Made by a program: the position numbers and the translations under genes. From Gluconacetobacter aggeris (GTDB lineage Bacteria > Pseudomonadota > Alphaproteobacteria > Acetobacterales > Acetobacteraceae), in contig NZ_JABEQD010000011.1 in assembly GCF_014174395.1 (NCBI RefSeq), forward strand, positions 1 through 64,000: a stretch of 64,000 nt of DNA. Direction: 5' to 3'. The notes beneath the pieces were generated by a model. The model was not told the DNA's origin and did no database searches. It was given only the letters and a program-made list of their open reading frames with translations. Shown here piece by piece: positions 8,504 to 48,782 of the stretch. Each line of letters begins with the position of its first letter. The stretch's first letter is position 1.

Positions 8504-8661
8504 TCCTGACCAAAATGCGCGCTGGCGGCGATCCGACGCGTGTTTTCTGTGCTCCGATGCTCACGGCCCTCAAGGCCGCTCCGCTTCGGTGCTCGAAAAC
8601 ACACGCCGGGCGCGGCCCTACCGGGCCGCTCTCGCTCACCAGCCCACATTTCCGATCAGGA
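8504..8661. repeat. dispersed inverted-end repeat, copy A (158 bases)
   Basis: Roughly 85% identical by eye, in inverse orientation, to 36142-36299 and of exactly the same length. The ends are inverted repeats: TCCTGACCAAAATG at the left and CGGAAATG-containing TCCTGATCGG read from the right. An internal long hairpin pairs GTGTTTTC with GAAAACAC and has a GGCC/GGCC tip. It starts two bases after the dioxygenase stop codon and lies between that gene and the TonB receptor. It encodes no plausible protein. It is probably a non-autonomous mobile repeat that now forms the 3' end of the upstream transcript. Confidence 0.85.
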
Positions 8662-8809
8662 ACTGAATGGAACAATACAGAAATTATCTATAGATTTCAG
8701 TATTCTTGTGCGGCGACCGGCGGGAGTGCATCGCCGGGAATGGACAGGACATTTTTTGTCGCAAATGAATTTCTTGACGCTTTGTATCTCTCGTGAAACA
8801 TACTCTGTT

Positions 8810-8828
8810 AATGCGAGTGGTTCGCATT
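8810..8828 (+). promoter_or_regulatory. candidate operator upstream of the TonB receptor
   Basis: Perfect inverted repeat AATGCGAGTGGTTCGCATT: seven-base arms, five-base spacer, ending seven bases before the first possible start codon of the receptor gene. A TTGACG at about 8774-8779 upstream could be a -35 element. The position, just before a ferric-siderophore receptor, suggests binding by an iron regulator such as Fur, and the arms share TGCNA/TNGCA with the box at 7701. The remaining bases 8662-8809 are AT-richer than the surroundings and hold no gene. Confidence 0.5.
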
Positions 8829-8835
8829 TTCATGT

Positions 8836-11187
8836 ATGGCATTGAGGAAACCCCGGAGAATGGGTGTCACTGGAAAATGGCGTGTGGCGCGGCAGGTGGC
8901 GCCCCAGCGCGGTCAGGTCCTGTGCGGTCTGGCGATGGCGATGATCGGGTCGCAGGGGCTGGCCGCGACGCCGGGTGTGGCGGCATCGGACAAGCTGACC
9001 GATGAGGAAAGGAAGAAGGCGCATCAGGATCGGCCCAATCCGCGGCACGAACATATCGAAGTCGTGGGCATGTGGCATGACATGTCGCCGAAATTCACCG
9101 CCTTGCTGCTCGATACGCCCAAGAGTGTTTCGGTCATCTCGCGCCAGTTGCTGACCCAGACCGCGTCGAACACGCTGGCCGATGCGTTGCGCAACGTGCC
9201 CGGGATTACGATGGGCGCGGGCGAGGGGGGCAATCCGGTCGGCGACCGGCCGTTCCTGCGGGGGTTTGACGCGCAGTCGAGCACCTTTGTCGATGGATTG
9301 CGCGATGTCGGGGCGCAGTCGCGCGAGACGTTCAATGTGGAATCGATTGAAATCGTCAAGGGCGATACCGGGGCCATCGCCGGGCGGGGCGGGGCCGGCG
9401 GTGCGATCCTGATCAACAGCAAGATGCCCACCCTGAAGAATGTGGTCGATGCCAATCTCGGCTTCGGCAATGCCGATTACAAGCGCGGCACGTTCGACGG
9501 CAACTGGCGGATTGCGGATACGGGGGCCTTCCGGCTGAACCTGATGGGTGACGACCAGGGCGTGGCGGGGCGCGGGCCCACCCATTATCGGCGTTTCGGC
9601 GTGGCGCCGGCGGTGTCGTTCGGGCTGGGTACCCCCAACCGCGTTACGCTGATGTATTACCATATGCAGAATGACGACCTGCCCGATGTCGGCATTCCGT
9701 ACAATAATCCGACCTTCAACCCGCGCTCGGGCGGTGCGGCGCGGGTCATGGCGAGGGGCGATGGCGCGCCGGTCAAGGTGCCGTTCGATACCTGGTACGG
9801 GCTGGAGAACCGCGATGCCAACCAGGATGGCATCGACATGGGCACGCTGCGGCTGGAACATGATTTCAGCAGCGCGCTGCATCTGCGCAATACCACGCGC
9901 TATTCGGAAACGACGCAGAACGACCGCTGGACGATGCCGGACGACAGCCAGGGCAATATCTATTACGGTTATGTCTATCGGCGCCTGAACAGCCGTTTCT
10001 CCACTTTCGATACGGCGACCAACCAGACCGATTTCTATGGATCGTTCGATCTGGCGGGCTTCAGGAACCAGTTTGCCTCCGGCGCGGAGTTTACGCGCGA
10101 GCAGGGCAAGAACGACAATTACACGGCCTATGTGAACGGCCAGAATGTGGGATCGGGAACCAATTTCACCCGTTGCGCCACCGCGCTGGCCTTTTCGTCG
10201 GGCACCTGTACCGCGCTGCTCGATCCGAATCCGGGCCAGCTCTGGACGGGCGACCTGAGGCATACGGGGAACCCGAACAGTACGCGCTTCGATACCAAGG
10301 CGGTCTATCTGTTCGACACGATCACGCTGCTGAAGCAGCTCCAGGCCAATGTCGGCCTGCGCTACGACAATGTGCAGAGCACCTATCGCGCGGCGGCGGG
10401 CGAATATGGGCGTGGCGACAATCTGTTCACCTACCAGGGTGCGCTGGTCTACAAGCCGCGTTCCAATGGTTCGATCTATGCGTCCTATGCCACGTCGGCG
10501 ATTCCGCCGGGCAATTCGGTTGGCCAGGGATCGGACGATATCAGCCTTGGTGCCGACCGATCGGGCAATATCGGCGCCGTGCTGAAGCCGGAACGCGACC
10601 GCACGATCGAGGTCGGTACCAAATGGAACGTGCTGCATAACCGGTTGCTGGTGACCGGCGCGCTGTTTCAGATCGACGCCACCAATTTCAAGATCACCAC
10701 CGCGACGGGCGGGATCGACAATGGCGGGACCAAGCGGGTTCGGGGATTCGAGGTCGGCCTGAATGGGCAGATTACCCGCGACTGGTCGATCAATGGCGGC
10801 TTCACGTACCTGGATGCGCGGCTGCTGAAGGCCGGCGGGTCCGGAGCTGCTGCCGGGCTGATGGATGGGCGCCATGCGCCGAACACGCCGGAGAACAGCC
10901 TGGCGCTGTGGACGACCTATCGCATCTTCCAGCCGCTGACGGTGGCGGCGGGCGTTTATTACATGGGCAAGGTGTACGGCACGGATTCCCCGACGGCACC
11001 GAAATTCGTGCCCAATTACTGGCGGTTCGATTTCATGGCCACCTACAGGTTCATGAAGCACTACAGCCTGCAGCTCAATATGCAGAACCTGGCCAACAAG
11101 CGGTATTTCACCCAGGCCTACACCACGCATTATGCGACGCAGGCGCCGGGCCGCACGGCGCTGGTGAACCTGAACGTGCATTTCTGA
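8836..11187 (+). CDS. TonB-dependent siderophore receptor (Fiu/PiuA-like)
   Basis: Outer-membrane TonB-gated transporter of about 783 residues. An N-terminal signal region is followed by a TonB-box-like EHIEVVGMW segment near residue 74-82. The plug domain carries TPKSVSVISRQLL, LADALRNVPGITMGAGEGG, the RGFDAQSSTFVDGLRD loop and IEIVKGDTGAIAGRGGAGGAI. A 22-strand barrel ends in the aromatic-terminated LVNLNVHF. The motifs fit catecholate-siderophore receptors, consistent with the adjacent YbiX-type dioxygenase. The start is uncertain: ATG at 8836 (used) or ATG at 8860, which has GAGGA 11 bases upstream and gives a more standard signal peptide. A Sel1 gene follows 8 bases after the stop, suggesting an operon. 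Confidence 0.93.
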   Translation: MALRKPRRMGVTGKWRVARQVAPQRGQVLCGLAMAMIGSQGLAATPGVAASDKLTDEERKKAHQDRPNPRHEHIEVVGMWHDMSPKFTALLLDTPKSVSVISRQLLTQTASNTLADALRNVPGITMGAGEGGNPVGDRPFLRGFDAQSSTFVDGLRDVGAQSRETFNVESIEIVKGDTGAIAGRGGAGGAILINSKMPTLKNVVDANLGFGNADYKRGTFDGNWRIADTGAFRLNLMGDDQGVAGRGPTHYRRFGVAPAVSFGLGTPNRVTLMYYHMQNDDLPDVGIPYNNPTFNPRSGGAARVMARGDGAPVKVPFDTWYGLENRDANQDGIDMGTLRLEHDFSSALHLRNTTRYSETTQNDRWTMPDDSQGNIYYGYVYRRLNSRFSTFDTATNQTDFYGSFDLAGFRNQFASGAEFTREQGKNDNYTAYVNGQNVGSGTNFTRCATALAFSSGTCTALLDPNPGQLWTGDLRHTGNPNSTRFDTKAVYLFDTITLLKQLQANVGLRYDNVQSTYRAAAGEYGRGDNLFTYQGALVYKPRSNGSIYASYATSAIPPGNSVGQGSDDISLGADRSGNIGAVLKPERDRTIEVGTKWNVLHNRLLVTGALFQIDATNFKITTATGGIDNGGTKRVRGFEVGLNGQITRDWSINGGFTYLDARLLKAGGSGAAAGLMDGRHAPNTPENSLALWTTYRIFQPLTVAAGVYYMGKVYGTDSPTAPKFVPNYWRFDFMATYRFMKHYSLQLNMQNLANKRYFTQAYTTHYATQAPGRTALVNLNVHF

Positions 11188-11195
11188 CCGGCGCG

Positions 11196-11876
11196 ATGCG
11201 GGAGGCTGGACCCGACCAGGCGACGGCCGGTGTCGCGACGATCTGCGACCTGGCCGGCGGCGGGCTGGCCGATGCGCAGCTCGCGCTGGGGCAGATCCTG
11301 CTGGATGGTGTGCTGCTGCCCCGCGACGCGCGTGCGGCGCTGGGGTGGTTTCTGGCGGCGGCGCGGCAGGGCAGCGCCATGGGGTGCAACATGGTCGGGC
11401 GCTGCTGCGAACTGGGCTGGGGCATGGCTGCGGCCCCGGCCGAGGCGCTGCGCTGGTATCGTCGGGCCGCCTGTGCCGGCCTGGATTGGGGCATGTACAA
11501 TTATGCCACCGGCCTGACCCTGGGGTGGGACGGGCCGCCCGACCATGTGCGGGCGCTGGCCTGGTTCCGGCGGGCCGCCGCGCGGGGACACTGCAAATCC
11601 TTCAACATCATCGGTGGTTTTTATGAGGATGGATGGGCGGTGACGCGTGATCTTGTCCAGGCGCGGGCATGGTATGCCCGCGCCGCCGAGGGCGGCGATT
11701 TTCGCGGGCATTTCAATCTCGCCCGCTTTCTGCTGGCGGAAGGCGAGATGATCCGGGCGCGCCGGCATTTCGAGAATGCCTGGCAGACCGCGACGCCGGC
11801 CTTTCGAACGCGGATGGAGCAATTCCTCGTGGAAAGCGGGATCGAGATGCGTTTTCGCCCGGCGCCGAACGGCTGA
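11196..11876 (+). CDS. Sel1-like (TPR) repeat protein, second copy
   Basis: 226-residue Sel1-repeat protein starting 8 bases after the TonB-receptor stop, so probably co-translated with it. Repeats are visible as ADAQLALGQILLDGVLLP, AARQGSAMGCNMVGRCCELGWG, ACAGLDWGMYNYATGL, AAARGHCKSFNIIGGFYEDGW and AAEGGDFRGHFNLARFLL. No signal peptide is seen. It aligns along its length with the Sel1 protein at 6872-7642. The ATG at 11196 is chosen because the frame upstream lies inside the receptor gene. The role is unknown; the conserved company of receptor, dioxygenase and Sel1 protein suggests an accessory function in iron acquisition. Confidence 0.82.
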   Translation: MREAGPDQATAGVATICDLAGGGLADAQLALGQILLDGVLLPRDARAALGWFLAAARQGSAMGCNMVGRCCELGWGMAAAPAEALRWYRRAACAGLDWGMYNYATGLTLGWDGPPDHVRALAWFRRAAARGHCKSFNIIGGFYEDGWAVTRDLVQARAWYARAAEGGDFRGHFNLARFLLAEGEMIRARRHFENAWQTATPAFRTRMEQFLVESGIEMRFRPAPNG

Positions 11877-11944
11877 AGCGGGACGGGCGAGCCCCTGAAG
11901 CCACACCTGCCGTCGAAGTCGGGCAGTGTGATTCGTCCCCGGCA

Positions 11945-13213
11945 TCAGAAGCCGAGTACGCCGTCCATACCGAAGGTGAACACACCTGTATTGCGACCGT
12001 CATTGAACGGAGAGGTTCCGTTCAATGACCGGTCGAAGCGGATTTCGGGCCGCAGTTCGAAGACGCGGACCCCATGGCCGAGCGTTGGCCTGTAGGTTAC
12101 CCCGAGCGTCAGCGCGCCATAGGTTGTGGGAGGCGCTGCCTCCAGGGGGACCGCGGCGCCCGTAAAGGCGGTCATGTACGCGGTGTTGTTCAGGAAGCTG
12201 AGGACGAACTGGCCGGTATTGTCGCGATAGATTTCACCGCGATAGTTGAAGGTCAGCGACGGGGTGATCTTGTAGCTGAGGAAGCTCACGAAACTGTAGG
12301 TGTCGGCGCGCAGGCCGTCATCATGCAGGTAATTGAATTCGCCCGTGACCGACAGCCTGTCGTTGATCTGGTACGCGGCGTTGATATCGTTCCAGTACCG
12401 CATCGCGCTGTCCGCGCGCGGACCGAGGGCTGCGACGGCATTTTCCGGCCCGACGCGGCTGAGTTCGATGATGTTGAGCTTGCCGCCGGCGAGGCCGTTC
12501 AGGTTGAAGCCGAAATATCCCGCCGCCTCGTGGTTGGGGTCGCTCTTGCCGAACGTGGTCTGATTGCCGGTATCGACGCCGAACGTGACGTCGAGAAGCG
12601 GAATGACATGCCATTTGAACATCGCGCCGACATGTTCGAACGGTACCGAGTATTCGGATGTGTAGGCAAGTGTATAGAAGGGGCGCGTCGTCGGATCGAG
12701 CGTTTCGACGCCCATCGGTGCCTGGAGGATGCCGGCCTGCATATCCAGGCCGCCGCTGGTCAGCCAGGGCAGATGCACGTCGACATGGGCCTGGGCGGGG
12801 ATAAGCTGGTAGCGGTTCGAGAATGCGCGATCGGAGACGCCCAGCAGATGATAGTAGCGTGCGTCCGAGCCGTAGAGCGCCTCCAGCGTGAAGCCGATCT
12901 GATATTCGCTCTTGCTCGGATCGATGGCCTTTGAAAGCGTGAATTCGAGCTGGTTCAGTTGGACCTGGTTGGCATGGTCGGCGAGGAAGTTGCCAAAATT
13001 GATCCCGTTATCGGGGCGGGCTGGATTGGCCATGATTCCACCTTCGATCTGGCCCACCAGGGTGACATCATTGAGCCATTGGGAAACGCCCGACTTGCCT
13101 GACGAATGGCCGAATACCGCAACCTGGGCCTGGGCAGCCGCCGGAAGAGCGAGACCGCTTGCCGTGAGGAAAAGTGAAATGGAGAAACGAGATTTCTTTC
13201 TTGGCTTCGACAC
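11945..13213 (-). CDS. outer-membrane beta-barrel protein (porin-like), downstream of amtB
   Basis: About 422 residues: a basic N-terminal KPRKKSRFS, a signal peptide ending in AAAQA, and a mature chain of alternating amphipathic strands ending in phenylalanine (GMDGVLGF), as expected for an outer-membrane barrel. The internal layout (VTLVGQIEGGIMANP near the N terminus, YQIGFTLEALYGSDARYYHLLGV, APMGVETLDP) resembles the putative beta-barrel porin-2 (BBP2/OmpL-like) group, recalled rather than checked. The start is GTG at 13213, with AGAGGA seven bases before it; an ATG at 13249 has no ribosome site. It lies 87 bases downstream of amtB on the same strand, so a nitrogen-linked outer-membrane channel is possible. 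Confidence 0.72.
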   Translation of the reverse strand: MSKPRKKSRFSISLFLTASGLALPAAAQAQVAVFGHSSGKSGVSQWLNDVTLVGQIEGGIMANPARPDNGINFGNFLADHANQVQLNQLEFTLSKAIDPSKSEYQIGFTLEALYGSDARYYHLLGVSDRAFSNRYQLIPAQAHVDVHLPWLTSGGLDMQAGILQAPMGVETLDPTTRPFYTLAYTSEYSVPFEHVGAMFKWHVIPLLDVTFGVDTGNQTTFGKSDPNHEAAGYFGFNLNGLAGGKLNIIELSRVGPENAVAALGPRADSAMRYWNDINAAYQINDRLSVTGEFNYLHDDGLRADTYSFVSFLSYKITPSLTFNYRGEIYRDNTGQFVLSFLNNTAYMTAFTGAAVPLEAAPPTTYGALTLGVTYRPTLGHGVRVFELRPEIRFDRSLNGTSPFNDGRNTGVFTFGMDGVLGF

Positions 13214-13236
13214 GCTTCGTTTCCTCTCTTTATTGT

Positions 13237-13258
13237 GAGGGGGAGGCACCTCCCCCTC
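13237..13258. terminator. perfect stem-loop between amtB and the porin-like gene
   Basis: GAGGGGGAGG-CA-CCTCCCCCTC: ten perfect base pairs with a two-base spacer, lying 23 bases upstream of the porin-like start codon and downstream of amtB. On the transcribed strand no U-tract follows, so it is more likely a partial terminator, processing site or mRNA-stability hairpin that sets different expression of amtB and the porin-like gene. Confidence 0.5.
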
Positions 13259-13299
13259 TTTCTACGTCCTTGACGAAGTGGCGCCTGAATCTTGTCGCA

Positions 13300-14685
13300 T
13301 CAGTTGATGCGTTCTCCGTGAAGGGTCATGTCCAGCCCTTCTTCTTCCTGGTCCGCCGTGACGCGCAGGCCGATCGCCAGGTCAATAATCTTGAGCAGGA
13401 TGAAGGATGCCGCGGCGCACCAGACGATGGTGATGCCCACGGCCTCGGCCTGGGAGACGAACTGCGCGAACGAACCGCTGATACCGCCGGGATTGGCATC
13501 GGTGGCCGAGAGCGGTCCATAGGCGAATACGCCGGTCAGCAATGCGCCGATGATGCCGCCGATGCCGTGCACGCCGAACGCGTCCAGGCTGTCGTCATAG
13601 CCCAGCATGTGCTTGAGCGACGTGGCGGCCCAGAAGCAGACCACGCCGGCTACCACGCCGATGATCAGCGCGCTGCCCGGCAGGACGAAGCCCGCCGCCG
13701 GCGTGATGGCGACCAGGCCGGCGACGGCACCGGAGATGATGCCCAGCACGGTCGGCTTGCCGCGGCGGACCCATTCGGCCAGCATCCAGCCGAGGCCGGC
13801 GGCGGCGGTGGCGATCTGGGTCGTTGTCATGGCCATGCCCGCGCGGCCGTTGGCGCCGACGGCCGAACCGGCATTGAAGCCGAACCAGCCCACCCACAGC
13901 AGCGACGCGCCGATGACGGCGTAGGTCAGGTTGAAGGGCGACAGATCGTCCTGCCCGTAACCCTTGCGCCTGCCCAGCACCAGGGCCGTCACCAGGCCGG
14001 CCACACCGGCATTGATATGCACGACGGTGCCGCCCGCGAAATCGATGGCGCCCAGGCCGGCGACCCAGCCCAGCGGGCTCCACACCCAGTGGGCGATCGG
14101 CGAATAGACCAGCAGCGACCACAGGATGGTGAAGACGCACAGGGCGCTGAACTTCATGCGCTCGGCGAACGCGCCGGTGATCAGCGCCGGGGTGATGATG
14201 GCGAACGTCATCTGGAACATCATCCAGACGCTCTCGGGGATCGTCATCGTGACCGCGTTGGGGGTGCCCGCGCCCATCGTGAAGCCGATATCGGCGCCCT
14301 TGGCGATATGCGCGCCGATGCCGTTGAGCAGGACGCGCGACAGGTCGCCGATATAGGGGGTGCCGGTGCCGAAGGCCAGGCTGTAGCCGGCCACTATCCA
14401 GACGATGGTGACGATGCAGCAGATCGCGAAGGACTGCATCAGCGTCGCCAGCACGTTCTTGCGGCGGACCATGCCGGCATAGAACAGGGCCAGGCCCGGG
14501 ATGGTCATCATCAGCACCAGCGCGGTGCTGACCAGCATCCATGACGTGTCGCCCGTGTCGATCGCAGGGGGCGCGTCGGCGGCGAGGGCGGGTGTGGACA
14601 GGCCGATGATCGGGACAAGGGGAGCCAGGACCTTGATGACACCCGAGAGCCTGAGAGCCTGGGACGTGAAAGGGGGATTCCTCAT
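13300..14685 (-). CDS. amtB: ammonium transporter AmtB
   Basis: 461-residue Amt/Rh-family channel conducting ammonium across the inner membrane. A cleavable-looking signal (ending PALAAD) precedes 11 expected membrane helices. Family motifs seen are DTSWMLVSTALVLMMTIPGLALFYAGMVR, the pore segment WVWSPLGWVAGLGAIDFAGGTVVHINAGVAGL with the conserved His, and a second pore-His region DDSLDAFGVHGIGGIIGALL. The start ATG overlaps the glnK stop in an ATGA arrangement, so translation is coupled. GlnK is known to plug AmtB when nitrogen is sufficient, and the NtrBC genes in this window are the probable regulators. Confidence 0.96.
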   Translation of the reverse strand: MRNPPFTSQALRLSGVIKVLAPLVPIIGLSTPALAADAPPAIDTGDTSWMLVSTALVLMMTIPGLALFYAGMVRRKNVLATLMQSFAICCIVTIVWIVAGYSLAFGTGTPYIGDLSRVLLNGIGAHIAKGADIGFTMGAGTPNAVTMTIPESVWMMFQMTFAIITPALITGAFAERMKFSALCVFTILWSLLVYSPIAHWVWSPLGWVAGLGAIDFAGGTVVHINAGVAGLVTALVLGRRKGYGQDDLSPFNLTYAVIGASLLWVGWFGFNAGSAVGANGRAGMAMTTTQIATAAAGLGWMLAEWVRRGKPTVLGIISGAVAGLVAITPAAGFVLPGSALIIGVVAGVVCFWAATSLKHMLGYDDSLDAFGVHGIGGIIGALLTGVFAYGPLSATDANPGGISGSFAQFVSQAEAVGITIVWCAAASFILLKIIDLAIGLRVTADQEEEGLDMTLHGERIN

Positions 14686-15020
14686 AGGGCGCTGTCCCCC
14701 GTGTCACCTGTGCGAATGCGCATTGCCTGCTCCAGATCAAGAATGAAGATTTTCCCGTCACCGATCTTTCCGGTGTTGGCGGCCTGGCGGATGGCCTCCA
14801 TCACGGTATCGGCAAGGTCGTTCGGGACCGCGATTTCAAGTTTCGATTTCGGAACGAAATGTTCCTGATATTCCGCGCCGCGATAGATTTCGGTCTGGCC
14901 TTTCTGGCGGCCGAATCCCTTGACGTCGGTCACGGTGATCCCCGTAACGCCGAGGGCGGACAGGGCCTCGCGCACGTCATCGAGCTTGAAAGGTTTTATT
15001 ATTGCAACGATTAGTTTCAT
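14682..15020 (-). CDS. glnK: nitrogen regulatory PII protein GlnK
   Basis: 112-residue PII signal protein, the exact family length. It senses 2-oxoglutarate, ATP/ADP and, through uridylylation, glutamine. Tyr51 in the T-loop (TEIYRGAEYQEHF) is the uridylylation site; the B-loop TGKIGDGKIFI is intact. The ATG at 15020 is preceded by GGAGGAGATC; the longer open frame up to 15101 has no support. The stop overlaps the amtB start by four bases. I looked for a sigma-54 -24/-12 pair in 15021-15269 and did not find a convincing one, which is odd for a glnK-amtB operon. Confidence 0.97.
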   Translation of the reverse strand: MKLIVAIIKPFKLDDVREALSALGVTGITVTDVKGFGRQKGQTEIYRGAEYQEHFVPKSKLEIAVPNDLADTVMEAIRQAANTGKIGDGKIFILDLEQAMRIRTGDTGDSAL

Positions 15021-16457: not shown

Positions 16458-16463
16458 GTGCCG

Positions 16464-16485: not shown

Positions 16486-16495
16486 TTGGGACCAT

Positions 16496-19628: not shown

Positions 19629-19632
19629 CGTG

Positions 19633-36088: not shown

Positions 36089-36141
36089 TCGGCCGGAAAA
36101 TTCAGCGAGAGAAATTCCGAGGCACGCGGGATCGCCGTAGA

Positions 36142-36299
36142 TCCTGCTCGGAAATGTGGGCTGGTGAGCGAGAGCGGCCCGAAGGGCCGCGCCCGGCGTG
36201 TATTGCCGAGCATCGCAGCGGAGCGGCCTTAATGGCCGTGAGCAGCGAAGCGCAGGCAATGCGCGCCGGATCGCCACCGGCGCGCATTTACGAGCAGGA
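36142..36299. repeat. dispersed inverted-end repeat, copy B (158 bases)
   Basis: Inverse-orientation partner of 8504-8661, same length, about 85% identical by eye. The ends are near-perfect inverted repeats: TCCTGCTCGGAAATG on the left and CATTTACGAGCAGGA on the right. The internal hairpin pairs TATTGCC with GGCAATG and GCGGCC with GGCCG; these bases differ from copy A but pairing is kept. The right end abuts the ispDF stop codon with no gap, so the element forms the start of the ispDF 3' untranslated region, in the same orientation as copy A relative to its upstream gene. Confidence 0.87.
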
Positions 36300-37454
36300 T
36301 TAGGGGACGAGGACGGTGGCGCTGGCGGTGCAGGCGATCCCTTCCTCGCGGCCGGTGAAGCCCAGCCGCTCGGAGGTGGTGGCCTTTACCGAGATCCGGT
36401 CGATGTCCACATTCAGCAGGTCGGCCAGGCGCTGGCGCATTGCTTCGGAATGCGGGCCGATCTTCGGACGCTCGCAGATCAGCGTGACGTCGGCATTGAC
36501 CAGCATGCCGCCGCGGGCGCGGATGCGCTCGCCGGCATGGACAAGGAAGCGCGCGCTGTCGGCGTCTTTCCATTCGTTCTGGCTGGGCGGGAAATGGCGC
36601 CCGATATCGCCTTCGGCCAGTGCGCCGTAGATGGCGTCGCACAGGGCGTGGATGCCGACATCGGCGTCCGAATGGCCGGCCAGGCCGCGATCGTGGGGCA
36701 CGGTGATGCCGCAGAGGATCAGCGGCCGGTTCTCGGCGAAGGCGTGCACGTCGTACCCGATGCCGGTGCGCGGCAGCAATGTCGGACCGATCAGCCGTTC
36801 CAGGCGCATCAGATCTTCCTCGTAGGTCAGCTTGATATTGTCTTCCGAGCCGGCAACCAGTGCGACCGTGTGACCTGCCGTTTCCAGCAGGGCGGCGTCG
36901 TCGGTCGCGTCGGTGGCGGCCGCGCCGCGATGCAGGTCGCGCAGCAGGGCGAAGCGGAAGCCCTGGGGCGTCTGGGCGCGATACAGATCCTCACGCGGGA
37001 CGGTTGCCGTGATGACGCCGTCATGACCGCGCTTGAGCGTGTCGGCCACCCGGACGGCCGGGATGGCGCCGGGATGGGCCGCCAGGGCGGCGATCACGGC
37101 CTGGGTCACCTCGGCCGGCACATAGGGGCGGGCGCCGTCATGGACCAGGACCAGCTCGGGCCGTTCGGCCGCAGGCAGGCGATCCAGCGCTTCCAGCCCC
37201 GCGCGGACGCTCTCCTGCCGGGTCGCGCCGCCCGCGACGGGCGGGAGGGTATCCAGCCCGTGCAGGGCCTCGGCCAGCGCGTCGGTGTCACCGACCGGCT
37301 GGAGCAGGTCCACATGGGGACTCAGGGCATCCGCCGCGTGGCGGATGATGGGCCGGCCGCCGAGCGTCAGATACTGCTTGGCGACAGGCGATGCCGTCGT
37401 GGCGCTGAAACGTCGGCCCACGCCCGCGGCAAGAAGAATGGCTGCAACACGCAT
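36300..37454 (-). CDS. ispDF: bifunctional IspD-IspF (MEP isoprenoid pathway)
   Basis: 384-residue fusion of two enzymes of non-mevalonate isoprenoid synthesis. The N-terminal IspD half (about 1-225) carries [14 protein letters not shown] and [11 protein letters not shown], and [12 protein letters not shown]; it makes CDP-methylerythritol. The C-terminal IspF half (about 226-384) carries [10 protein letters not shown], the zinc ligands in [20 protein letters not shown] and [17 protein letters not shown]; it makes the cyclic diphosphate. Such fusions are typical of alphaproteobacteria, next to dusB-ntrBC. It is divergent from dusB. Confidence 0.96.
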
Positions 37455-41377: not shown

Positions 41378-41414
41378 CATCCATGAGTCTTTTGATGCGT
41401 CGGGCGACAAGCGG

Positions 41415-43688
41415 GTGCTGACCCCAAGGCACGGTTTCAATATCCGGCGGCTGATGTCGGGGATGGGGTTGATGCGCGGGCTGTTCGGGCTGCTTGCGCG
41501 GCGCAATGTCGCCATTGCCCTGGTGGCTTTGGCCCTGTGCTTCGGTGTTGCCACCTTCGTCGTGCTGTCGGGCGGGATGTCGGTGACGCATTATCCGCGC
41601 ATCCAGGCCCTGATCTTTATCCTGAACTTCCTGGTCCTGCTGCTGCTTGCGCTGGCGCTGGCGGAACGGCTGGGGCGCGTGATGGCCGATCGGCGCCGTG
41701 GCCTGGCCGGGGCGCGGCTGCATGTGCGCCTGGTGACGCTGTTCGGCATCGTCGCGGTGGCGCCGACGGTGCTTGTCGGCACCTTTGCCGCGGCCTTCTT
41801 CCATTACGGCATCCAGATTTGGTTCAGCGATCGGGTCAACACGGCGCTGAACGAGGCGTTGGAGGCCTCGCGCGGATATCTGCAGGAACATAACGCCAAT
41901 ATCCGGACCGAGGCATTTTCGCTGGCCAATTACCTGGCCGGGGCGGCCAACAGCCTGGAAGGGTCCGGGTCGGACCTGATGCATGATCCCGAGGCGCTGG
42001 ACCAGGTGCTGGATTCGCAGGCGACCCTGCGCGGGCTGAACGAAGCGGTGATCTATGATCCGCTGACCAACACCGTGGTCGCCAAGGGGGGGCTGATGAG
42101 CCGGCCGGGCGACATGCAGGCCCTGCCGCCGCCCTCGGCCACCATGATGGCGCGCACCAACGAGATCGCGATTCTCGATTCGCCGGACGAGAAGACGGTG
42201 CGGGCGGTGATTTCGCTGGGCGATACGCCTGCGCTGATGCTGGTGATTACCCGCCCCGTCGATCCGTCGATCCTCGACCATATGCACAAGACCGAAATGG
42301 TGGTGGCGGATTATCAGCGGCTGAACCGGAACCGCTCCAAGATCCAGTTCACCTTCGTGCTGATCTTCGCGCTGGTGGGGTTGCTGGTTCTCTTCGCCGC
42401 CGTGCTGGTGGGGCTGGTGCTGGCCAACCAGATCGTGCGGCCGCTGGGGCTGCTGATCCTGGCGTCGGAGCGCATCAGCGATGGCGACCTGAAGGTGCGG
42501 GTGCCGGAGGGCGAGCGGGATGATGAGGTATCGAGCCTGTCGCGCGCCTTCAATCGCATGACCGACCAGCTTTCCAGCCAGCGTTCCGAGCTGATGATCG
42601 CCTACAGCCAGATCAACGAGCGCCGCCGGTTTACCGAAGCCGTGCTGTCGGGCGTATCTGCCGGGGTGATCGGCCTGGATGCCCAGCAGGTGATCGAGCT
42701 GCCCAATCGCGCCGCCGGTGTTCTGCTGCAAAAGGATCTGGCGGCCGCCGTCGGGCGGCAACTGGTCGATGTCGTGCCCGAGTTCGGCCCGATGCTGAAG
42801 GAGGCGGCCAGTGCCCCCGACCGGGTGTGGACGGGCGAGATTCACGTTGGATCGGGCACGAAGGCCTGCACGCTGCTGGTCCGGATCGGCGGCGAGATCA
42901 GCGGGGGGGCGCCTGATCGGTATGTCGTGACGTTCGATGACATTACGGCCCTGCAGGCGGCCCAGCGCAAGGCGGCGTGGGCCGACATCGCCCGGCGGAT
43001 CGCGCATGAGATCAAGAATCCGCTTACGCCGATCCAGCTTGCGGCCGAGCGGCTGAAGCGCCGCTTCCTGCGCGAAATCACCTCCGACCCCGAGACGTTC
43101 AGCCAGTGCGCGGATACGATCGTGCGGCATGTCGGCGATATCGGGCGCATGGTGGATGAATTCTCGGCGTTCGCGCGGATGCCGCAGCCGATCATCCGGC
43201 CCGAGGACCTGTCGCGAATCGTGCGCGAGGCGCTGATCCTGCAACGCAACGCGCATCCCGAGATCCGTTACGACACCGATCTGCCCGATCATGGGCCGAT
43301 CGTGTCGTGCGACCGGCGGCTGGTCGGGCAGGCGTTGACCAATTTGCTGCAAAATGCCGCCGATGCCATTGCAATGCTTCCGAAAGATGGTGATGCTGCC
43401 GATCGCCCGACCGGACCGGTCGGCACTGTCCGGATTGTCTTGCGTATCGAAGGAGCGGCCGCCCATATCGCGGTTGTCGACGATGGGATCGGTCTGCCTG
43501 AAGAAGACAGGCAGCGACTGACCGAGCCCTATGTGACCCACAAGCCGAAGGGAACCGGGCTGGGGCTGGCGATCGTCAAGAAAATTCTGGAAGATCACGG
43601 GGGAAGCATCCGTCTGGAAGACAGGCAGGATGGACGGGGAGCTGTTTCGGTCTTGATACTGCCAGTAAAGGACGAGCATGGCGCATGA
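41415..43688 (+). CDS. ntrY: membrane sensor kinase NtrY
   Basis: 757-residue membrane histidine kinase. Helices NVAIALVALALCFGVATFVVLSGG, IQALIFILNFLVLLLLALALAE and VTLFGIVAVAPTVLVGTFAAAFF precede a periplasmic region. A further helix (FTFVLIFALVGLLVLFAAVLVGLVLAN) leads to HAMP (RPLGLLILASERISDGDLKVRV) and a PAS domain. The H-box is ADIARRIAHEIKNPLTPIQLAAERLKRRF; the ATPase domain has GTGLGLAIVKKILEDHGG. Start GTG at 41415. The ntrX start lies inside its last codons. Confidence 0.95.
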   Translation: MLTPRHGFNIRRLMSGMGLMRGLFGLLARRNVAIALVALALCFGVATFVVLSGGMSVTHYPRIQALIFILNFLVLLLLALALAERLGRVMADRRRGLAGARLHVRLVTLFGIVAVAPTVLVGTFAAAFFHYGIQIWFSDRVNTALNEALEASRGYLQEHNANIRTEAFSLANYLAGAANSLEGSGSDLMHDPEALDQVLDSQATLRGLNEAVIYDPLTNTVVAKGGLMSRPGDMQALPPPSATMMARTNEIAILDSPDEKTVRAVISLGDTPALMLVITRPVDPSILDHMHKTEMVVADYQRLNRNRSKIQFTFVLIFALVGLLVLFAAVLVGLVLANQIVRPLGLLILASERISDGDLKVRVPEGERDDEVSSLSRAFNRMTDQLSSQRSELMIAYSQINERRRFTEAVLSGVSAGVIGLDAQQVIELPNRAAGVLLQKDLAAAVGRQLVDVVPEFGPMLKEAASAPDRVWTGEIHVGSGTKACTLLVRIGGEISGGAPDRYVVTFDDITALQAAQRKAAWADIARRIAHEIKNPLTPIQLAAERLKRRFLREITSDPETFSQCADTIVRHVGDIGRMVDEFSAFARMPQPIIRPEDLSRIVREALILQRNAHPEIRYDTDLPDHGPIVSCDRRLVGQALTNLLQNAADAIAMLPKDGDAADRPTGPVGTVRIVLRIEGAAAHIAVVDDGIGLPEEDRQRLTEPYVTHKPKGTGLGLAIVKKILEDHGGSIRLEDRQDGRGAVSVLILPVKDEHGA

Positions 43689-45069
43689 AATCCTGATCGT
43701 TGATGACGAACCGGATATCCGGCTGCTCATCGAGGGCATTCTTCGGGATGAGGGCTATGAGACCCGGCTGGCGGGAGATTCGGATTCCGCGATCAGCGCG
43801 TTCAGGGCGCGCAGGCCGTCGCTGGTGATCCTGGATGTCTGGCTCCAGGGGTCGCGCCTGGACGGGCTGGGCATCCTGCAGGCGATCCAGGGCGAGGAAC
43901 CGGCCGTCCCGACCATCATGATTTCCGGCCATGGCACCATCGAGACGGCCGTGGCCGCGTTGCAGCATGGCGCCTACGATTTTATTGAAAAGCCTTTCCA
44001 GTCCGATCGGCTGCTGCTGGTCGTCAGGCGTGCGCTGGAGGCCTCGCGCCTGGCGCGGGAGAACGCGGAACTGCGCCTGCGCGCGGGACCGGAGGCCATG
44101 CTGTTCGGCGACAGCCCTGCCATTGCCGCCGTGCGCAACCAGATCGAGCGCGTGGCCCCCAGCGGGTCGCGGGTGCTGATTTCCGGCGCCGCAGGCGCGG
44201 GCAAGGAGGTTGCGGCGCGGATGATCCATGCCCGGTCGCGCCGTGCCGAAGGGCCGTTCGTCGCCCTGAACTGCGCCACGCTGGCGCCGGGCCGGTTCGA
44301 GGAGGAGCTGTTCGGCATCGAGGGCACGGCGGACGGTAACGGGCGGCGCACCGGCGTGCTGGAGCGCGCCCATGGGGGCACGCTGCTGCTGGACGAAGTG
44401 GCGGACATGCCGATCGAGACCCAGGGCAAGATCGTCCGCGCGTTGCAGGACCAGAGTTTCGAGCGTGTGGGGGGCGCCACGCGGGTAAAGGTCGATGTCC
44501 GCGTGCTGGCGGCGACCAACCGCGACCTGCAGGAGGCGATCGCCGCCGGGCGCTTCCGCGAGGATCTGTATTACCGGCTGGCGGTGGTGCCGCTGCGTGT
44601 GCCCAGCCTGCGGGAACGGCGGGAGGACATTCCGGGCCTGGCGCGGATGTTCTTGCACCGGGCGGCGGAGAATGCCGGCCTGCCGTTGCGCGACCTGTCG
44701 GGCGACGCGATCGCGGCGTTGCAGAGCTATGACTGGCCCGGCAATTCGCGCGAGCTGCGCAACCTGATGGAGCGGCTGCTGATCATGATGCCGGGGAACG
44801 GCACCGACCTGATCCGCGCCGAGATGCTGCCGCCGTCGGTGGGGCAGGGGGCGCCGACCCTGCTGAAGTTCGACCCCGCCGCCGATGTGATGGGCCTGCC
44901 GCTGCGCGAGGCGCGCGACCTGTTCGAGACCCAGTATCTGCAGGCGCAATTGCTGCGATTCGGCGGCAATATCAGCCGCACCGCCGGCTTTGTGGGCATG
45001 GAGCGCAGCGCGCTGCACCGCAAGCTGAAGCAGTTGGGCGTGACGTCCGACGAACGGGGAGCAGGATGA
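43678..45069 (+). CDS. ntrX: response regulator NtrX
   Basis: 463 residues: receiver (ILIVDDEPDIRLLIEGILRDEG; acceptor Asp in LVILDVWLQGSRLDG), AAA+ domain and C-terminal Fis-type HTH (NISRTAGFVGMERSALHRKLKQLGV). The AAA+ P-loop is GAAGAGKE and Walker B LLLDEVADMP. Where NtrC has GAFTGA this protein has a GIEGTADGNGRRTG stretch, so the sigma-54 contact loop is absent, as in other alphaproteobacterial NtrX proteins, which fits a role with sigma-70. Starts 10 bases before the ntrY stop. Confidence 0.95.
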   Translation: MAHEILIVDDEPDIRLLIEGILRDEGYETRLAGDSDSAISAFRARRPSLVILDVWLQGSRLDGLGILQAIQGEEPAVPTIMISGHGTIETAVAALQHGAYDFIEKPFQSDRLLLVVRRALEASRLARENAELRLRAGPEAMLFGDSPAIAAVRNQIERVAPSGSRVLISGAAGAGKEVAARMIHARSRRAEGPFVALNCATLAPGRFEEELFGIEGTADGNGRRTGVLERAHGGTLLLDEVADMPIETQGKIVRALQDQSFERVGGATRVKVDVRVLAATNRDLQEAIAAGRFREDLYYRLAVVPLRVPSLRERREDIPGLARMFLHRAAENAGLPLRDLSGDAIAALQSYDWPGNSRELRNLMERLLIMMPGNGTDLIRAEMLPPSVGQGAPTLLKFDPAADVMGLPLREARDLFETQYLQAQLLRFGGNISRTAGFVGMERSALHRKLKQLGVTSDERGAG

Positions 45070-45182
45070 GGTTTTGCCCCTCGGGGAAGGGCCTGCTAGA
45101 GAGAGCCAACCGAATTATTGGCGGGGAACGGAGCAGCTTGCGCGGCGTTCGTCCTCGCCGACAGAGCAAGTAAGGCCCAACC

Positions 45183-45479
45183 GTGGCAAAAGAACCTACG
45201 CAGAACGTTCAGGATGTTTTTCTCAACCATGTCAGGCGCTCCAAGACGCCGGTCACGGTGTTTCTGGTCAATGGTGTCAAGTTGCAGGGCATCATCACCT
45301 GGTTCGACAATTTTTCCGTGCTTCTGCGCCGTGATGGGCACACGCAGCTTGTCTACAAGCACGCCATCAGCACCGTGATGCCGGCGACGCCCGTCGTGCT
45401 GTTCGACCCGTCGCGCCCCGAGGGTGCCTCGGCGGATCTGTCGGACAAGGATCTGGCGGGGGATTCCGATCTCGTCTGA
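45183..45479 (+). CDS. hfq: RNA chaperone Hfq
   Basis: 98-residue Sm-like hexameric RNA chaperone that helps small RNAs pair with mRNAs. Sm1 motif region [42 protein letters not shown] and Sm2 motif [11 protein letters not shown] are conserved; the C-terminal tail is acidic ([14 protein letters not shown]). Start GTG at 45183 gives [10 protein letters not shown], a typical Hfq N terminus. hflX follows, as in many proteobacteria. The 113-base gap before it holds no gene I can name. Confidence 0.97.
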
Positions 45480-45486
45480 GATTCCC

Positions 45487-46773
45487 GTGGCGCAGTCGCC
45501 CACGCGGGCGGCCGTCATCCTGCCATGGGAGCGGCCGGACCGTCAGGACGAGGTTCGCGCCGCCGAAGCCCGGCTGGAAGAAGCCGTGGGCCTGGCGGCG
45601 TCGATCGGGCTGGTGATCGTGCGGCAGGCCGTGCTTCTGTTGCGCGCCCGCCGGCCGGCCACGCTGCTGGGAAGCGGGCAGGTGGAGTCGCTGCGCCAGG
45701 CGGTGCAGGAGGATCGCGTTGCCGTCGTGGTGGTGGATACGCGCCTGACGCCCGTGCAGCAGCGGAACCTGGAAAAGGCCCTGGGCTGCAAGGTCATCGA
45801 CCGTACGGCCCTGATCCTGGACATTTTCGGCGAGCGCGCCGCCACCAAGGAGGGTTCGCTCCAGGTCGAACTCGCGCATCTGGAATATCAGCGCAGCCGT
45901 CTGGTCCGGACCTGGACCCATCTGGAGCGGCAGCGCGGCGGCTTCGGCTTTCTCGGCGGGCCGGGTGAGACCCAGATCGAGGCCGATCGCCGCATGATCG
46001 GCGACCGTATCGTGCGGTTGAAGCGCGAGTTGGAGCAGGTGCGGCGCACGCGCGGCCTGCATCGTGCCGCGCGGCGGCGGGTACCGTTTCCCGTCGTGGC
46101 GCTGGTCGGCTATACCAATGCCGGAAAATCGACCCTTTTCAATGCGCTGACCGGGGCGACCGTTTATGCGCAGGACCAGTTGTTCGCGACGCTGGACCCG
46201 ACGATGCGCGGCATTCGCCTGCCATCGGGCCGGCGGATCATCCTGTCCGACACGGTGGGCTTCATCAGCGACCTGCCGACGGAACTGATTGCCGCCTTTC
46301 GCGCCACGCTGGAGGAAGTTGCCGAGGCCGACATCATCCTGCATGTGCGCGATATCTCGCATCCCGACACCACGGCGCAGCGCGCCGATGTCGAGGAGGT
46401 GCTGGAGGGCATGGCGACCAGCGGAACGCTGGAGGACGACTGGCGGCGGCGGGTGATCGAGGTGCAGAACAAGGCCGACCTGCTGGGCGGCCGCGATGCG
46501 GTGCCGCCCCGGGCGGGCAGTGTCGTGATTTCGGCGATTACCGGCGACGGGCTGCCCGAATTGCTGGCGGCGATCGACCAGCGCCTGACCGAGGCGATGG
46601 AGATCGTCCATTACACCATTCCGGTGAAGGACGGCGCGCTGCTGGCGTGGCTGTATGCTCATGGCGAAGTGACGTCGCGCGATGATGGCGAGCAGGCTAT
46701 CGTGGTGACGGTGCGGCTGTTGCCGGCCGATCGCGCGCGGTTCGAACAGCAACTGGCCAGTCGCGAGCGGTAG
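45487..46773 (+). CDS. hflX: ribosome-associated GTPase HflX
   Basis: 428-residue GTPase that rescues stalled ribosomes. The N-terminal domain has LLGSGQVESLRQAVQEDRVAVVVVDTRLTPVQQRNLEK, followed by the linker LVRTWTHLERQRGGFGFLGGPGETQIEADRR. The G domain has G1 GYTNAGKST, G3 DTVGF and G4 NKAD. The start GTG at 45487 is 7 bases after the hfq stop; the frame is open to 45424 but that part overlaps hfq. Confidence 0.93.
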   Translation: MAQSPTRAAVILPWERPDRQDEVRAAEARLEEAVGLAASIGLVIVRQAVLLLRARRPATLLGSGQVESLRQAVQEDRVAVVVVDTRLTPVQQRNLEKALGCKVIDRTALILDIFGERAATKEGSLQVELAHLEYQRSRLVRTWTHLERQRGGFGFLGGPGETQIEADRRMIGDRIVRLKRELEQVRRTRGLHRAARRRVPFPVVALVGYTNAGKSTLFNALTGATVYAQDQLFATLDPTMRGIRLPSGRRIILSDTVGFISDLPTELIAAFRATLEEVAEADIILHVRDISHPDTTAQRADVEEVLEGMATSGTLEDDWRRRVIEVQNKADLLGGRDAVPPRAGSVVISAITGDGLPELLAAIDQRLTEAMEIVHYTIPVKDGALLAWLYAHGEVTSRDDGEQAIVVTVRLLPADRARFEQQLASRER

Positions 46774-46816
46774 GCGCCCGCCCGCGCCGGATGGGCGGGA
46801 AGGGGGGAGTGATGTC

Positions 46817-47653
46817 ATGACGGTCGCGGTTTCGCGCGCGCATATGCGTACGGTTCTGGACATCATGCGGCAGGCGGCGGCGGATCGGATCATGCCGTCC
46901 TTCCGCCGGCTGGATGCGGACGCCATCCGGTGCAAGACCAGCAAGCTGGACGTGGTGACCGTGGCAGACGAAGCGGCCGAGCATGACATGACCGAGGCGT
47001 TCCTGCGTCTTTCGCCCGGGGCGGCGGTGATCGGCGAGGAAGCCGTCTGTGCCCGGCCCGGCCTGCTGGACGCGATCGAGGATGCGGACCTTGCCTATGT
47101 CATCGATCCGATCGACGGTACGGCGAATTACGCGGCGGGTGTGCCGCTGTTCGGCGTCATGGTCGCGATCCTGCGTCGGGGCGAGATTGTCGGAGCGGCG
47201 ATTCTCGACCCGATCTGCAATGTCGCGGCGCTGGCGGTGCGGGGCGAGGGGGCATGGCAGGTCGGGCCGGACGATGCGGAGCGGCCGTTATGTTGCGCGC
47301 GGCCCGTGCCGGCGGCCGAAATGACCGGCAACGCCTCGTGGCGCTACCTGCCCCCGCCGATTCGCGACCTGGTGGCCCGCAACCTGCCGCGCGTGATGGG
47401 ATCGTGGGATTTCCGCTGTGCCGCGCATGAATATCTGATGCTGGTGGATGGGAAATGCCACTTCCTGCTCTTCAACCGCACCATGCCTTGGGATCATCTG
47501 GCCGGCTGGCTGATCCATCACGAGACCGGCGGTTATTGCGCCCATTTCGACGGAGCGCCTTACCGGTTGACGGATCGCGCCGGGGGGCTGCTCTACGCCC
47601 CCGACCGGGCGAGCTGGCAGGATCTGCGTGACCTGCTGCTGGACCCGGGCTGA
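46817..47653 (+). CDS. inositol monophosphatase family protein
   Basis: 278-residue metal-dependent phosphatase of the IMPase/FBPase/CysQ superfamily. Seen: LDVVTVADEAAEHDM, IGEEAV, the metal-site motif DPIDGTANYAAGVPLFGVMVA and the second metal motif WDHLAGWLIHHETGG. The substrate may be inositol phosphate, histidinol phosphate or PAP; histidinol-phosphate phosphatase is a possibility but nothing local decides it. Repeat element copy D starts on the base after its stop. Confidence 0.9.
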   Translation: MTVAVSRAHMRTVLDIMRQAAADRIMPSFRRLDADAIRCKTSKLDVVTVADEAAEHDMTEAFLRLSPGAAVIGEEAVCARPGLLDAIEDADLAYVIDPIDGTANYAAGVPLFGVMVAILRRGEIVGAAILDPICNVAALAVRGEGAWQVGPDDAERPLCCARPVPAAEMTGNASWRYLPPPIRDLVARNLPRVMGSWDFRCAAHEYLMLVDGKCHFLLFNRTMPWDHLAGWLIHHETGGYCAHFDGAPYRLTDRAGGLLYAPDRASWQDLRDLLLDPG

Positions 47654-47733
47654 GAGGCTGTTTCAAAAGCGCCGATGGTGAGTGGAAGCGTGGCGTCCGT
47701 CAGGTCGCCCAGCGGAGCTTCTGAAGCAGCCTC
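47654..47733. repeat. short inverted-end repeat, copy D (80 bases)
   Basis: Ends GAGGCTGTTTCAAAAGC and GCTTCTGAAGCAGCCTC are inverted repeats matching at 15 of 17 positions. Left-end sequence GGCTGTTTCAAAA..CCGATGG is shared with copy C at 48629, as is the right-end TCGCC..AAGCAGCC, so D looks like C with the interior removed. It begins directly after the phosphatase stop codon and ends 10 bases before the convergent mazG stop. Confidence 0.8.
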
Positions 47734-47743
47734 TGCGTCTCGC

Positions 47744-48532
47744 TTACGCGCCGCTGTCGCGTTCCTGCCGTTTGACGGCCTGCCAGGCGGCCTCCATGTC
47801 CGCCAGGGTGCTGTCGGCCGGCGTCAGGCCGCGTTCGGACAGATGCTGTTCCACTCCGGTGAAGCGGCGGGTGAACTTGGCGTTGGCCTGGCGCAGGCAG
47901 GCTTCGGGGTCCAGGTCCAGCTTGCGGGCCAGGGTGGCGAGCGTGAACAGCACGTCGCCCAGTTCGTCGGCGATTCGTTCGCGGTCGCCCGATTCCAGTT
48001 CGACCTTCAGTTCCGCGATTTCCTCATCCACTTTTTCGGCGACGTCCCTGGCATCGGGCCAGTCGAAGCCGACGCGGGCGGCGCGGGCGGACAGTTTGCG
48101 CGCGCGCAGCAGGGCGGGCAGTGCGGTGGGGATGCCGGCCAGCGTGCCGCTCTCGCGCCGGGCGAGGCGTTCCTGCTCCTTGCCGTCCTCCCACTGGCCG
48201 GGGGCCAGTGCGGCGTCGCCGAAGACATGGGGATGGCGGCGGACCATCTTGTCGCCGATCATGCCGGCGACGGTCGCGAAATCGAACCAGCCGGCCTCTT
48301 CGCCCATGCGGGCGTGATAGACGACCTGGAGCAGCAGGTCGCCCAGTTCGTCGGGCAGGGCGGCCCAGTCCTGCCGGGCGATCGTGTCCTCGACCTCGTA
48401 GGCTTCCTCGATCGCATAGGGGGCGATGGAGGCGAAATCCTGCTCGCGGTCCCAGGGGCAGCCGCTAACGGGGTCGCGCAGGCGGGCCATGATGTCGAGA
48501 AGGCGCGAAAGGGCCTGGGCGGCGTCGGACAT
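47744..48532 (-). CDS. mazG: nucleoside triphosphate pyrophosphohydrolase MazG
   Basis: 262-residue tandem MazG enzyme that hydrolyses non-canonical or surplus NTPs. Domain 1: LRDPVSGCPWDREQDFASIAPYAIEEAYEVEDTI with EExxE and the downstream DELGDLLLQVVYHARM. Domain 2: FDWPDARDVAEKVDEEIAELKVEL with ERIADELGDVLFTLATLAR. The start ATG at 48532 has GGAG about nine bases upstream; the frame runs far upstream through a repeat element but with no start support. Confidence 0.94.
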   Translation of the reverse strand: MSDAAQALSRLLDIMARLRDPVSGCPWDREQDFASIAPYAIEEAYEVEDTIARQDWAALPDELGDLLLQVVYHARMGEEAGWFDFATVAGMIGDKMVRRHPHVFGDAALAPGQWEDGKEQERLARRESGTLAGIPTALPALLRARKLSARAARVGFDWPDARDVAEKVDEEIAELKVELESGDRERIADELGDVLFTLATLARKLDLDPEACLRQANAKFTRRFTGVEQHLSERGLTPADSTLADMEAAWQAVKRQERDSGA

Positions 48533-48628
48533 CCGGGGGCTCCGTTCATGGGTCGGCGGGATCGCCCCATGTCTGCACCGGCGCCGCGGGCGCGTCCAGC
48601 GTGGCGCGATATGCGGATGCTCCGATGC

Positions 48629-48782
48629 GGCTGTTTCAAAAATTCCGATGGCGCGTGGAGGCGCGGCGCCTGCCATGCCTCTGACGACGGTTTCCGAGCA
48701 TCGGAGCGGCCTTGATGGTCGTGAGCGCCGAAGCACAGGAAACGCGCGTCGGATCGCCGCTAGTGCGCTTTTCCAAGCAGCC
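48629..48782. repeat. dispersed inverted-end repeat, copy C (154 bases)
   Basis: Ends GGCTGTTTCAAAA and TTTTCCAAGCAGCC are inverted repeats and match copy D. The interior (about 48690-48770) resembles copies A and B: CGAGCATCGGAGCGGCC, GTGAGCGCCGAAGC and CGGATCGCCGC. The hairpin pairs GTTTCC with GGAAAC, a third version of the same pair set. It fills most of the 309-base gap between divergent mazG and argC, so unlike the others it lies at 5' ends. The remaining bases of the gap show no gene. Confidence 0.8.

Follow-up and report, generated by a model that had tools for sequence, protein, structure and literature searches.

A dispersed folded element of Gluconacetobacter aggeris that often lies directly behind stop codons in one orientation

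Copies of the element in the window

The window analysed here, a stretch of 64,000 nt from Gluconacetobacter aggeris (assembly GCF_014174395.1, contig NZ_JABEQD010000011.1, positions 1 to 64,000), carries three copies of a dispersed palindromic element, called A, B and C, which a first-pass annotation had described as short mobile repeats with inverted ends and a covarying hairpin. Copy A (8502-8663, minus strand) is a full-length element with TGA on both sides (8499-8501 and 8664-8666, read directly from the flanks), and the first of these, on the plus strand, is the stop codon of a 2OG-Fe(II) oxygenase (PKHD-type) gene (7815-8501). Copy B (36138-36303, plus strand) is also full-length, and its 3' end adjoins the TAA stop codon (36300-36302, minus strand) of the ispDF gene (36300-37454, minus strand). 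Both are ~158-166 nt long and lie in opposite orientations; BLAST gave 87% identity over query bases 1-148 of 158, and the repeat search 83% over 112 nt plus 95% over 43 nt. Each folds into a single continuous foldback that none of 200 shuffles equalled, copy B having the most stable fold of the three (-118.4 kcal/mol, z -11.5) and copy A following it (-108.5 kcal/mol, z -10.7).

Copy C (48625-48786, plus strand) is a degraded copy with the divergent genes mazG and argC on either side. It is a covariance-model match (76.5 bits, E 2.8e-14), and what it has in common with A lies mainly in its 3' half (71 nt, 86%), while its 5' arm has different ends and its fold is unexceptional (z -1.55, 13 of 200 shuffles as good). 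Thus, the claim of the first-pass annotation that C shares the interior of the element holds for the 3' half and the model match, but not for the 5' arm or the fold; the positions of A and B, their opposite orientation, their inverted ends and the three stem pairs quoted for A, B and C are all present in the sequence. By eye, the C site is empty in the relatives G005, G007, G008 and G009, and is occupied in G010 by a full copy and in G001 by a short one of the 61-nt type.

Two shorter relatives, absent from that annotation, as was the placement at stop codons, complete the set. An 80-nt palindrome with the C-type ends GAGGCTGTTTC / GAAGCAGCCTC (47654-47733, no strand assigned) starts directly 3' of the TGA stop (47651-47653) of an inositol monophosphatase-family gene (46817-47653). 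A 52-nt remnant with element-like ends (59013-59064, no strand assigned) lies between TGA at 59010-59012, the stop of the open reading frame (ORF) 57942-59012, and TGA at 59065-59067. Neither is a model match at E ≤ 0.01. Of these five elements, only C lacks an adjoining stop codon.

A family in the genus and beyond

Copy B has 48 BLAST matches in its own genome (4.32 Mb, 61 contigs). A covariance model, R1, built from 29 of the 30 best BLAST copies (L013, a tandem partial copy, was left out), gave 90 matches at E ≤ 0.01, two of them the opposite strand of a listed copy. Removal of these two duplicates and of C2:270720-270764, C2:157025-157133 and C11:123427-123598 left a census of 85 places, six without a fetched locus, and hence 79 copies with one. 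Besides the full-length copies there are shorter ones of discrete sizes, among them ten of 61 nt, four of 117 nt and two each of 95 and 134 nt. Judged from their sequences, these look like products of deletion between short direct repeats of the element, with the hairpin retained.

The family is present in all 14 genus genomes searched, with 8 to 135 copies each. Beyond the genus, matches were found in at least 57 of the 299 genomes of the family Acetobacteraceae (29 of 102 genera) and, with R1, in at least 11 of 385 genomes of the class (G. aggeris and 10 others). A second model, R2, built from 11 distant sequences, raised the class figure to at least 43 of 385 genomes and 39 of 277 genera, G. 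aggeris included. Note that the family and class searches scored 7-9 candidates per genome, which makes these figures lower bounds. Opposite-strand double matches and core-only or cut matches in relatives were removed by hand. Among the matches listed (80 of 107 stretches), the named genomes with an exact 26-base core were those of Gluconacetobacter species, Endobacter medicaginis, Novosphingobium sp. ST904 and some metagenome-assembled genomes (MAGs); the Endobacter, MAG and Novosphingobium rows were left out of the flank, end-match and genus stop-codon counts given below.

No known RNA family matched the element credibly. At gathering score, Rfam recognised two tRNAs in the window and nothing else, and at E ≤ 5 it gave no match near the gathering score over the element in B or the 11 distant loci. 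Carriage by plasmids or phages was also considered and rejected, copy B having no blastn match at E ≤ 0.01 in either collection. A description of the repeat family was not found in the CC-licensed part of PMC, and the available excerpt of the G. diazotrophicus genome paper, which lists 223 insertion sequences (IS), does not mention such a repeat.

Some loci show local arrangements of their own. In L063 (5361-5997) full copies alternate with core-only copies (model positions 28-139), and two copies lie side by side in both L139 (1997-2330) and L107 (5361-5645). A tmRNA or tRNA gene shares the fetched stretch with the element in four distant loci, at a distance of 37 nt in L266, 5 nt in L088 and more in L265 and L267.

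The conserved fold belongs to one strand

The element, ~160 nt in full, consists of an outer stem of 29 predicted pairs, a side hairpin (in the Acetobacteraceae copies), an inner stem and an apex, where the motif over the class sample is roughly CGAGAACCGGAGCGCAGCG...CGTGAGCACCGGAAGCGCAG. The paired positions covary. In alignment A2 (29 own copies) 23 of 62 pairs are compensated, compared to a mean of 13.1 in shuffled controls (0/500 as high) and 3-8 in slid structures. In alignment A6, made of the 11 distant sequences (65% mean column identity), the figure is 42 of 49 pairs, with a shuffled mean of 26.0 (0/500 as high) and 22-30 in slid structures. Note that MAFFT moved the 3' ends of L018 and L021 by one base in A2, which slightly lowers the pair counts.

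Moreover, the fold is strand-specific. Of the two strands, that of the model is the more stable one in 120 of 121 copies (by 18.6 kcal/mol on average) and in 19 of 19 distant ones, though homologous copies do not count as independent cases here. There are more G.U than A.C cells, 142 versus 22 in A2 and 60 versus 16 in A6; these counts lean to the model strand, on which the structures of both alignments were derived, and the energies are free of that bias. Relative to the gene behind whose stop the element lies, the better-folding strand is the antisense one.

Placement behind stop codons

In the census of G. aggeris, a stop codon lies at the 3' (right) end of the model in 39 of the 79 copies and at the other end in 2. 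For copies of at least 145 nt the right-hand figure is 30/55; the short copies (<100 nt; 15 in the census, 13 with a locus), a small sample, have a right stop in 5 cases, one of them with a left stop as well. All stop calls come from crude ORF rules and not from annotation. A rule that filters ORFs by GC content at third codon positions (GC3) gave right stops in 22/30 and 43/80 copies of two sets, and left stops in 1/30 and 2/80, respectively. A looser rule without this filter was applied to 117 genus copies, which come from ten named Gluconacetobacter species and G. aggeris; they include orthologues, the own-genome census being the cleaner set. It gave 72 right and 9 left stops, and since all nine left-stop copies also have a right stop, 63 copies have a stop on the right only and none on the left only. 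As background, stops make up 307 of 3438 non-coding TNA sites (9%).

The same placement is seen outside the genus. In other Acetobacteraceae, sampled at one copy per genome, 19 of 23 copies have a right stop and none a left stop, within 6 nt. The first 10 class matches have six right stops and one left, and the 29 R2 matches in other families of the class include 17 with a right stop and two with a left one, compared to 4.8% at random positions.

By eye, at L035, L039, L040, L044, L046, L047 and L048, the stop of the empty allele falls at the codon used by the filled allele, and its sequence can vary. At L042 the own genome lacks that stop and the reading frame ends within the element.

Flanks and ends common with insertion sequences

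With the boundary set at the first stem base (n = 137 copies), TNA flanks the element on the right in 66/137 copies and on the left in 41/137, compared to a background of 2.6%. Most left flanks do not coincide with the end of a gene, which means that the left-hand TNA is not accounted for by coding constraint. We then compared 22 own copies (of 30 flank fragments) with four relatives, and one clean empty site was found. L047 reads CTTCTGA, element, TGAAAGATG in G. aggeris and CTTCTGAAAGATG in G001 and G010, that is, TGA is duplicated around the element. TGA is also present on both sides of copy A, of L048 and of the 59013-59064 remnant, and TAA on both sides of L373.

IS5-family transposases (PF13340) are encoded in 13 of the 14 genus genomes. 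Around their genes, 40 stretches from two genomes were inspected; 7/40 had no inverted repeat, 12 had chance repeats only, in 3 the ends lay a few bases inside the reported repeat, and 5 of the remaining 18 were duplicates, leaving 13 non-duplicate copies in which GAG ends were defined. These represent a 930-bp IS with the end GAGCCCGATCCGAAAG and an 883-bp IS with the end GAGCCTGTTTGGAAAG, which we take to be members of the IS1031 group. They are flanked by TNA on both sides in 12/13 cases, identically so in 11/13. IS of the IS1031 group follow a TNA target rule. Six of the 137 copies of the element carry, at one end or at both, the terminal 15 bases of the 883-bp IS without a mismatch (end GAGCCTGTTTGGAAA), and three further copies differ from it at one base; among letter-shuffled ends the best score was 9/15. 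Like these IS, the element has TNA duplications, but it is too short to hold a transposase gene. Therefore, on the evidence of the identical ends and the TNA duplications, we read the element as a probable passenger of IS1031-like transposases. It is short and dispersed, with terminal inverted repeats, a target-site duplication (one clean case) and ends common with an autonomous IS, all of them features of miniature inverted-repeat transposable elements (MITEs).

A proposed route of spread and its difficulties

The first-pass annotation had supposed that these are non-autonomous mobile repeats, a view supported by the copy number, the TNA flanks and the ends common with IS. It had also anticipated further copies in the genome, compensatory changes at the paired sites and an IS with the same ends, and each of these was found. 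Its further suggestion, a possible conversion into regulatory RNA, would have to accommodate a better-paired strand that runs antisense to the adjoined gene. With a probability of about 0.62, we propose that the copies are non-autonomous, MITE-like elements moved in trans by IS5-family (IS1031-type) transposases into TNA. Such transposases would act on the inverted ends of the element, and insertion at TNA would duplicate it. At a TNA that serves as a stop codon (TGA or TAA), such a duplication would restore the stop and leave the host gene unharmed, so that stop codons would be tolerated as sites; the excess at stops and the orientation are left unexplained by this step. A single transposase would need both ends to match, and copies may carry ends fitted to different IS, which would explain some of the compensated changes seen in the outer stem. 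The inner stem, side hairpin and apical motif, which together form the interior, would be an old one-strand fold kept across the Alphaproteobacteria, and its conservation on one strand suggests that it matters for the element's own spread or as RNA.

Several observations weigh against mobilisation in trans into TNA. The left and right trinucleotides are equal in 15/137 copies, compared to a shuffled mean of 10.4, and 510 of 10,000 shuffles were as high. Twelve own copies have an apparently empty relative, and among these only L047, L048 and A have equal flanking TNA and only L047 a clean junction. No model match was found at 29 of the 30 fetched transposase loci. In the relative G007, the left end of L373 (1925-2091) lies directly after the TAA stop of a 154-codon IS5-type transposase frame, so that this copy faces against the usual orientation. 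Some of the adjoined stops are TAG, which is not a TNA. Moreover, TNA targeting explains neither the stop excess (~50-80% versus 9%) nor the orientation, and stop codons are used about five to nine times more than by chance, which the rebuilt stop leaves unexplained as well. The IS themselves also lie at stops (6/13 by an 80-codon rule, 2/13 by a 150-codon rule), so part of the stop preference may belong to the transposase. Finally, in the 45 copies away from stops the right trinucleotide is TGA in 7 and TCA in 5, so the target alone sets no orientation.

The general direction of transcription was rejected as the cause of the orientation, because at non-stop sites 14 copies run along both neighbours and 6 are opposed to both. 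Taken with the mix of TGA and TCA at such sites, this means that the orientation is tied to the stop codon and not to the target sequence or to general transcription direction. Selection could remove one of the two directions, or insertion could go together with the termination of translation or transcription; of selection and target choice, the former would be the probable cause. In E. coli, ribosomes stall at repetitive extragenic palindromes (REPs) near stops (Liang et al. 2015, as related in excerpts of PMC5082802 and PMC12306157), and by analogy a cost or benefit of an element behind a stop is plausible.

A more daring version of the above, which we consider possible but doubtful, would make the element an ancient, class-wide mobile structure that specifically colonises stops, always facing one way, by a step of targeting or retention that is linked to translational or transcriptional termination. 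The conserved single-strand fold would then be its working part, and most copies would be a mobile 3'-end device rather than the decaying relic of a transposon.

Alternative explanations and change at orthologous sites

It could also be argued that the element is a structured RNA of 3' regions, a hairpin behind the stop that protects, terminates or tunes the upstream mRNA, mobility having served only for seeding. The nearly fixed orientation at stops speaks for this (39:2 in the own genome; 63 right only, 0 left only and 9 both of the 117 genus copies), as do the lack of any orientation preference away from stops, the recurrence of the stop bias in other genera and families, the apical motif conserved over the class and the retention of stop and position at several orthologous sites; there is also the precedent of E. 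coli REPs within 15 nt of the stop (excerpts of PMC12306157 and PMC5082802). However, the best fold and the G.U pairs lie antisense to the adjoined gene (120/121 and 19/19 copies; G.U 142 versus A.C 22). Nor do the elements prefer convergent gene ends, their neighbours being convergent or tandem in a ratio of 29:37, compared to a background of 177:243. In addition, nine of the 39 orthologous pairs differ at no more than three base pairs, and these nine show 7 one-sided and 1 two-sided broken changes, versus 4 one-sided kept and 3 compensated. We therefore think a 3'-region RNA unlikely. Since the better fold is antisense and there is no concentration between convergent genes, the case for a simple terminator, or for a stabiliser of 3' ends, is not a clear one. 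Terminators at convergent gene ends were rejected as candidates, neighbour orientation equalling background and the printed flanks having no regular T-run by eye.

The orthologous sites also bear on a different idea, that the covariation arose without selection, the arms of the palindrome being homogenised by template switching or by recombination between copies. All 39 orthologous pairs together hold 180 compensated changes of base pairs, 68 one-sided kept, 37 one-sided broken and 4 two-sided broken. The side hairpin varies almost solely as a block (57 two-sided versus 4 one-sided changes), and many of the other orthologous pairs diverge like unrelated copies (mean compensated changes 4.6, random copies 8.5). 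It therefore looks as if much of the covariation separates lineages of the element, through replacement or recombination, and less of it arises stepwise at a single site. At one orthologous site (L049 in G. aggeris, L316 in G001) the element is inverted with its end sequences nearly unchanged, as expected for recombination between its arms, and two own 61-nt copies (L174 and L176) combine a GAGCCTGACCGG-type end with a GAGCCTGTTTGG-type end, which is what recombination between two lineages would look like. These observations would all suit homogenisation. Against it, the covariation extends to the outermost bases, beside unique flanks, and holds in the 11 distant sequences, which conserve the apical motif; homogenisation within one copy conserves no motif, and the conserved one counts against it. 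Homogenisation as the whole source of the covariation is thus quite unlikely. Taken with the strand bias, the pattern of change suggests that the fold is no less important to the element itself than to the host gene.

Individual sites illustrate how much the element changes in place. Across species, the stop at the ispDF site is TAA, TGA or TAG, and the outer stems differ and are mostly still paired. At site A in G001 (L221), the element is by eye a chimera with one C-type and one B-type arm and a short extra piece inside. At site B in G008 (L240), another palindrome (ATATCCGTTCACACTGG...) stands in place of most of copy B, and the part adjoining the ispDF stop is left.

Very unlikely, finally, is a single-strand hairpin element (IS200/IS605-, REP- or attC-like), its folded model strand inserted beside TCA with the right-hand TCAG as part of the element: the fold is strand-specific, TCA is more frequent on the right than on the left (51 versus 24 of 137), and element plus TCA inserted after TCA formally equals the duplication seen, but TGA (7) and TTA (6) occur as right flanks too, L373 has TAA on both sides, the ends match a DDE-type IS with real TNA duplications, an attC core was not recognised in the ends, selection on stop codons would also leave an excess of TCA on the right, and Y1_Tnp (PF01797) was found in 0/1 genomes, the own one, with the control positive in 5/14.

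Relation to known repeats

Transport by IS5-family transposases, the reading we prefer, would place the element among the MITEs, and it can be compared with other dispersed repeats, as described in excerpts of the papers named. The Yersinia palindromic sequences (YPAL) are a dispersed, intergenic mobile repeat of about 167 bp (PMC2759123). By description, they are like the element in size and in dispersed intergenic mobility, but belong to the Gammaproteobacteria. De Gregorio and co-workers reportedly noted in 2006 that YPAL insert just after stop codons; we know of no fixed stop orientation or class-wide folded core in YPAL.

REPs are linked to the Y1 transposase known as REP-associated tyrosine transposase (RAYT). 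In the excerpts available they measure 20-40 bp; GTAG-tagged REP ends often give flanking ORFs a TAG stop, and CGTC repeats are reported missing in Acetobacteraceae (PMC3733652). The GTAG/CGTC REPs are likewise dispersed palindromes; the element differs in its length of ~160 nt, its TNA flanks and the lack of Y1_Tnp in its own genome. A REP/RAYT system was rejected, as the element is 158-166 nt long, has no shared GTAG tag and comes with no PF01797 in the own genome (0/1; control 5/14; relatives not searched). Note that the left end of copy B happens to read GTAG, which is not shared as a tag in the flank profiles. The Br-REP1/2 of Bradyrhizobium, also alphaproteobacterial, are palindromes found in 3' regions, with about 200 sites for Br-REP1 (PMC5082802), but they differ from the element in size (about 20-40 nt) and have unrelated consensus sequences.

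CIR of Caulobacter resemble the element in length and in having inverted repeats. They are tied to CcrM methylation sites, whereas GANTC is present in only 1/29 aligned copies of the element, and on this feature, compared by description, the element departs from CIR. Both CIR, as intergenic repeats, and the Rickettsia palindromic elements (RPE), palindromes of about 150 bp, are recorded in Alphaproteobacteria (PMC10969869, for CIR as a review). By description, RPE lie within genes, whereas the element lies behind stops or between genes in the copies examined, and the in-frame placement inside genes that marks RPE was not encountered among those copies. We regard the element as a new family of a known kind, probably that of the IS5-type MITEs, whose tested features it has. 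What sets it apart is a placement rule that is unusual and yet conserved widely; its distinction from YPAL, RPE and CIR is drawn from their descriptions.

Biological meaning

The family joins two subjects that are usually studied apart, the miniature element driven by an IS and the conserved folded RNA or DNA. With a class-wide folded core and a near-constant direction at stops, it amounts to a natural experiment on what hairpins placed directly behind stop codons do to genes. It also bears on whether mobile elements may use the stop codon as a safe site, which the target duplication would rebuild.

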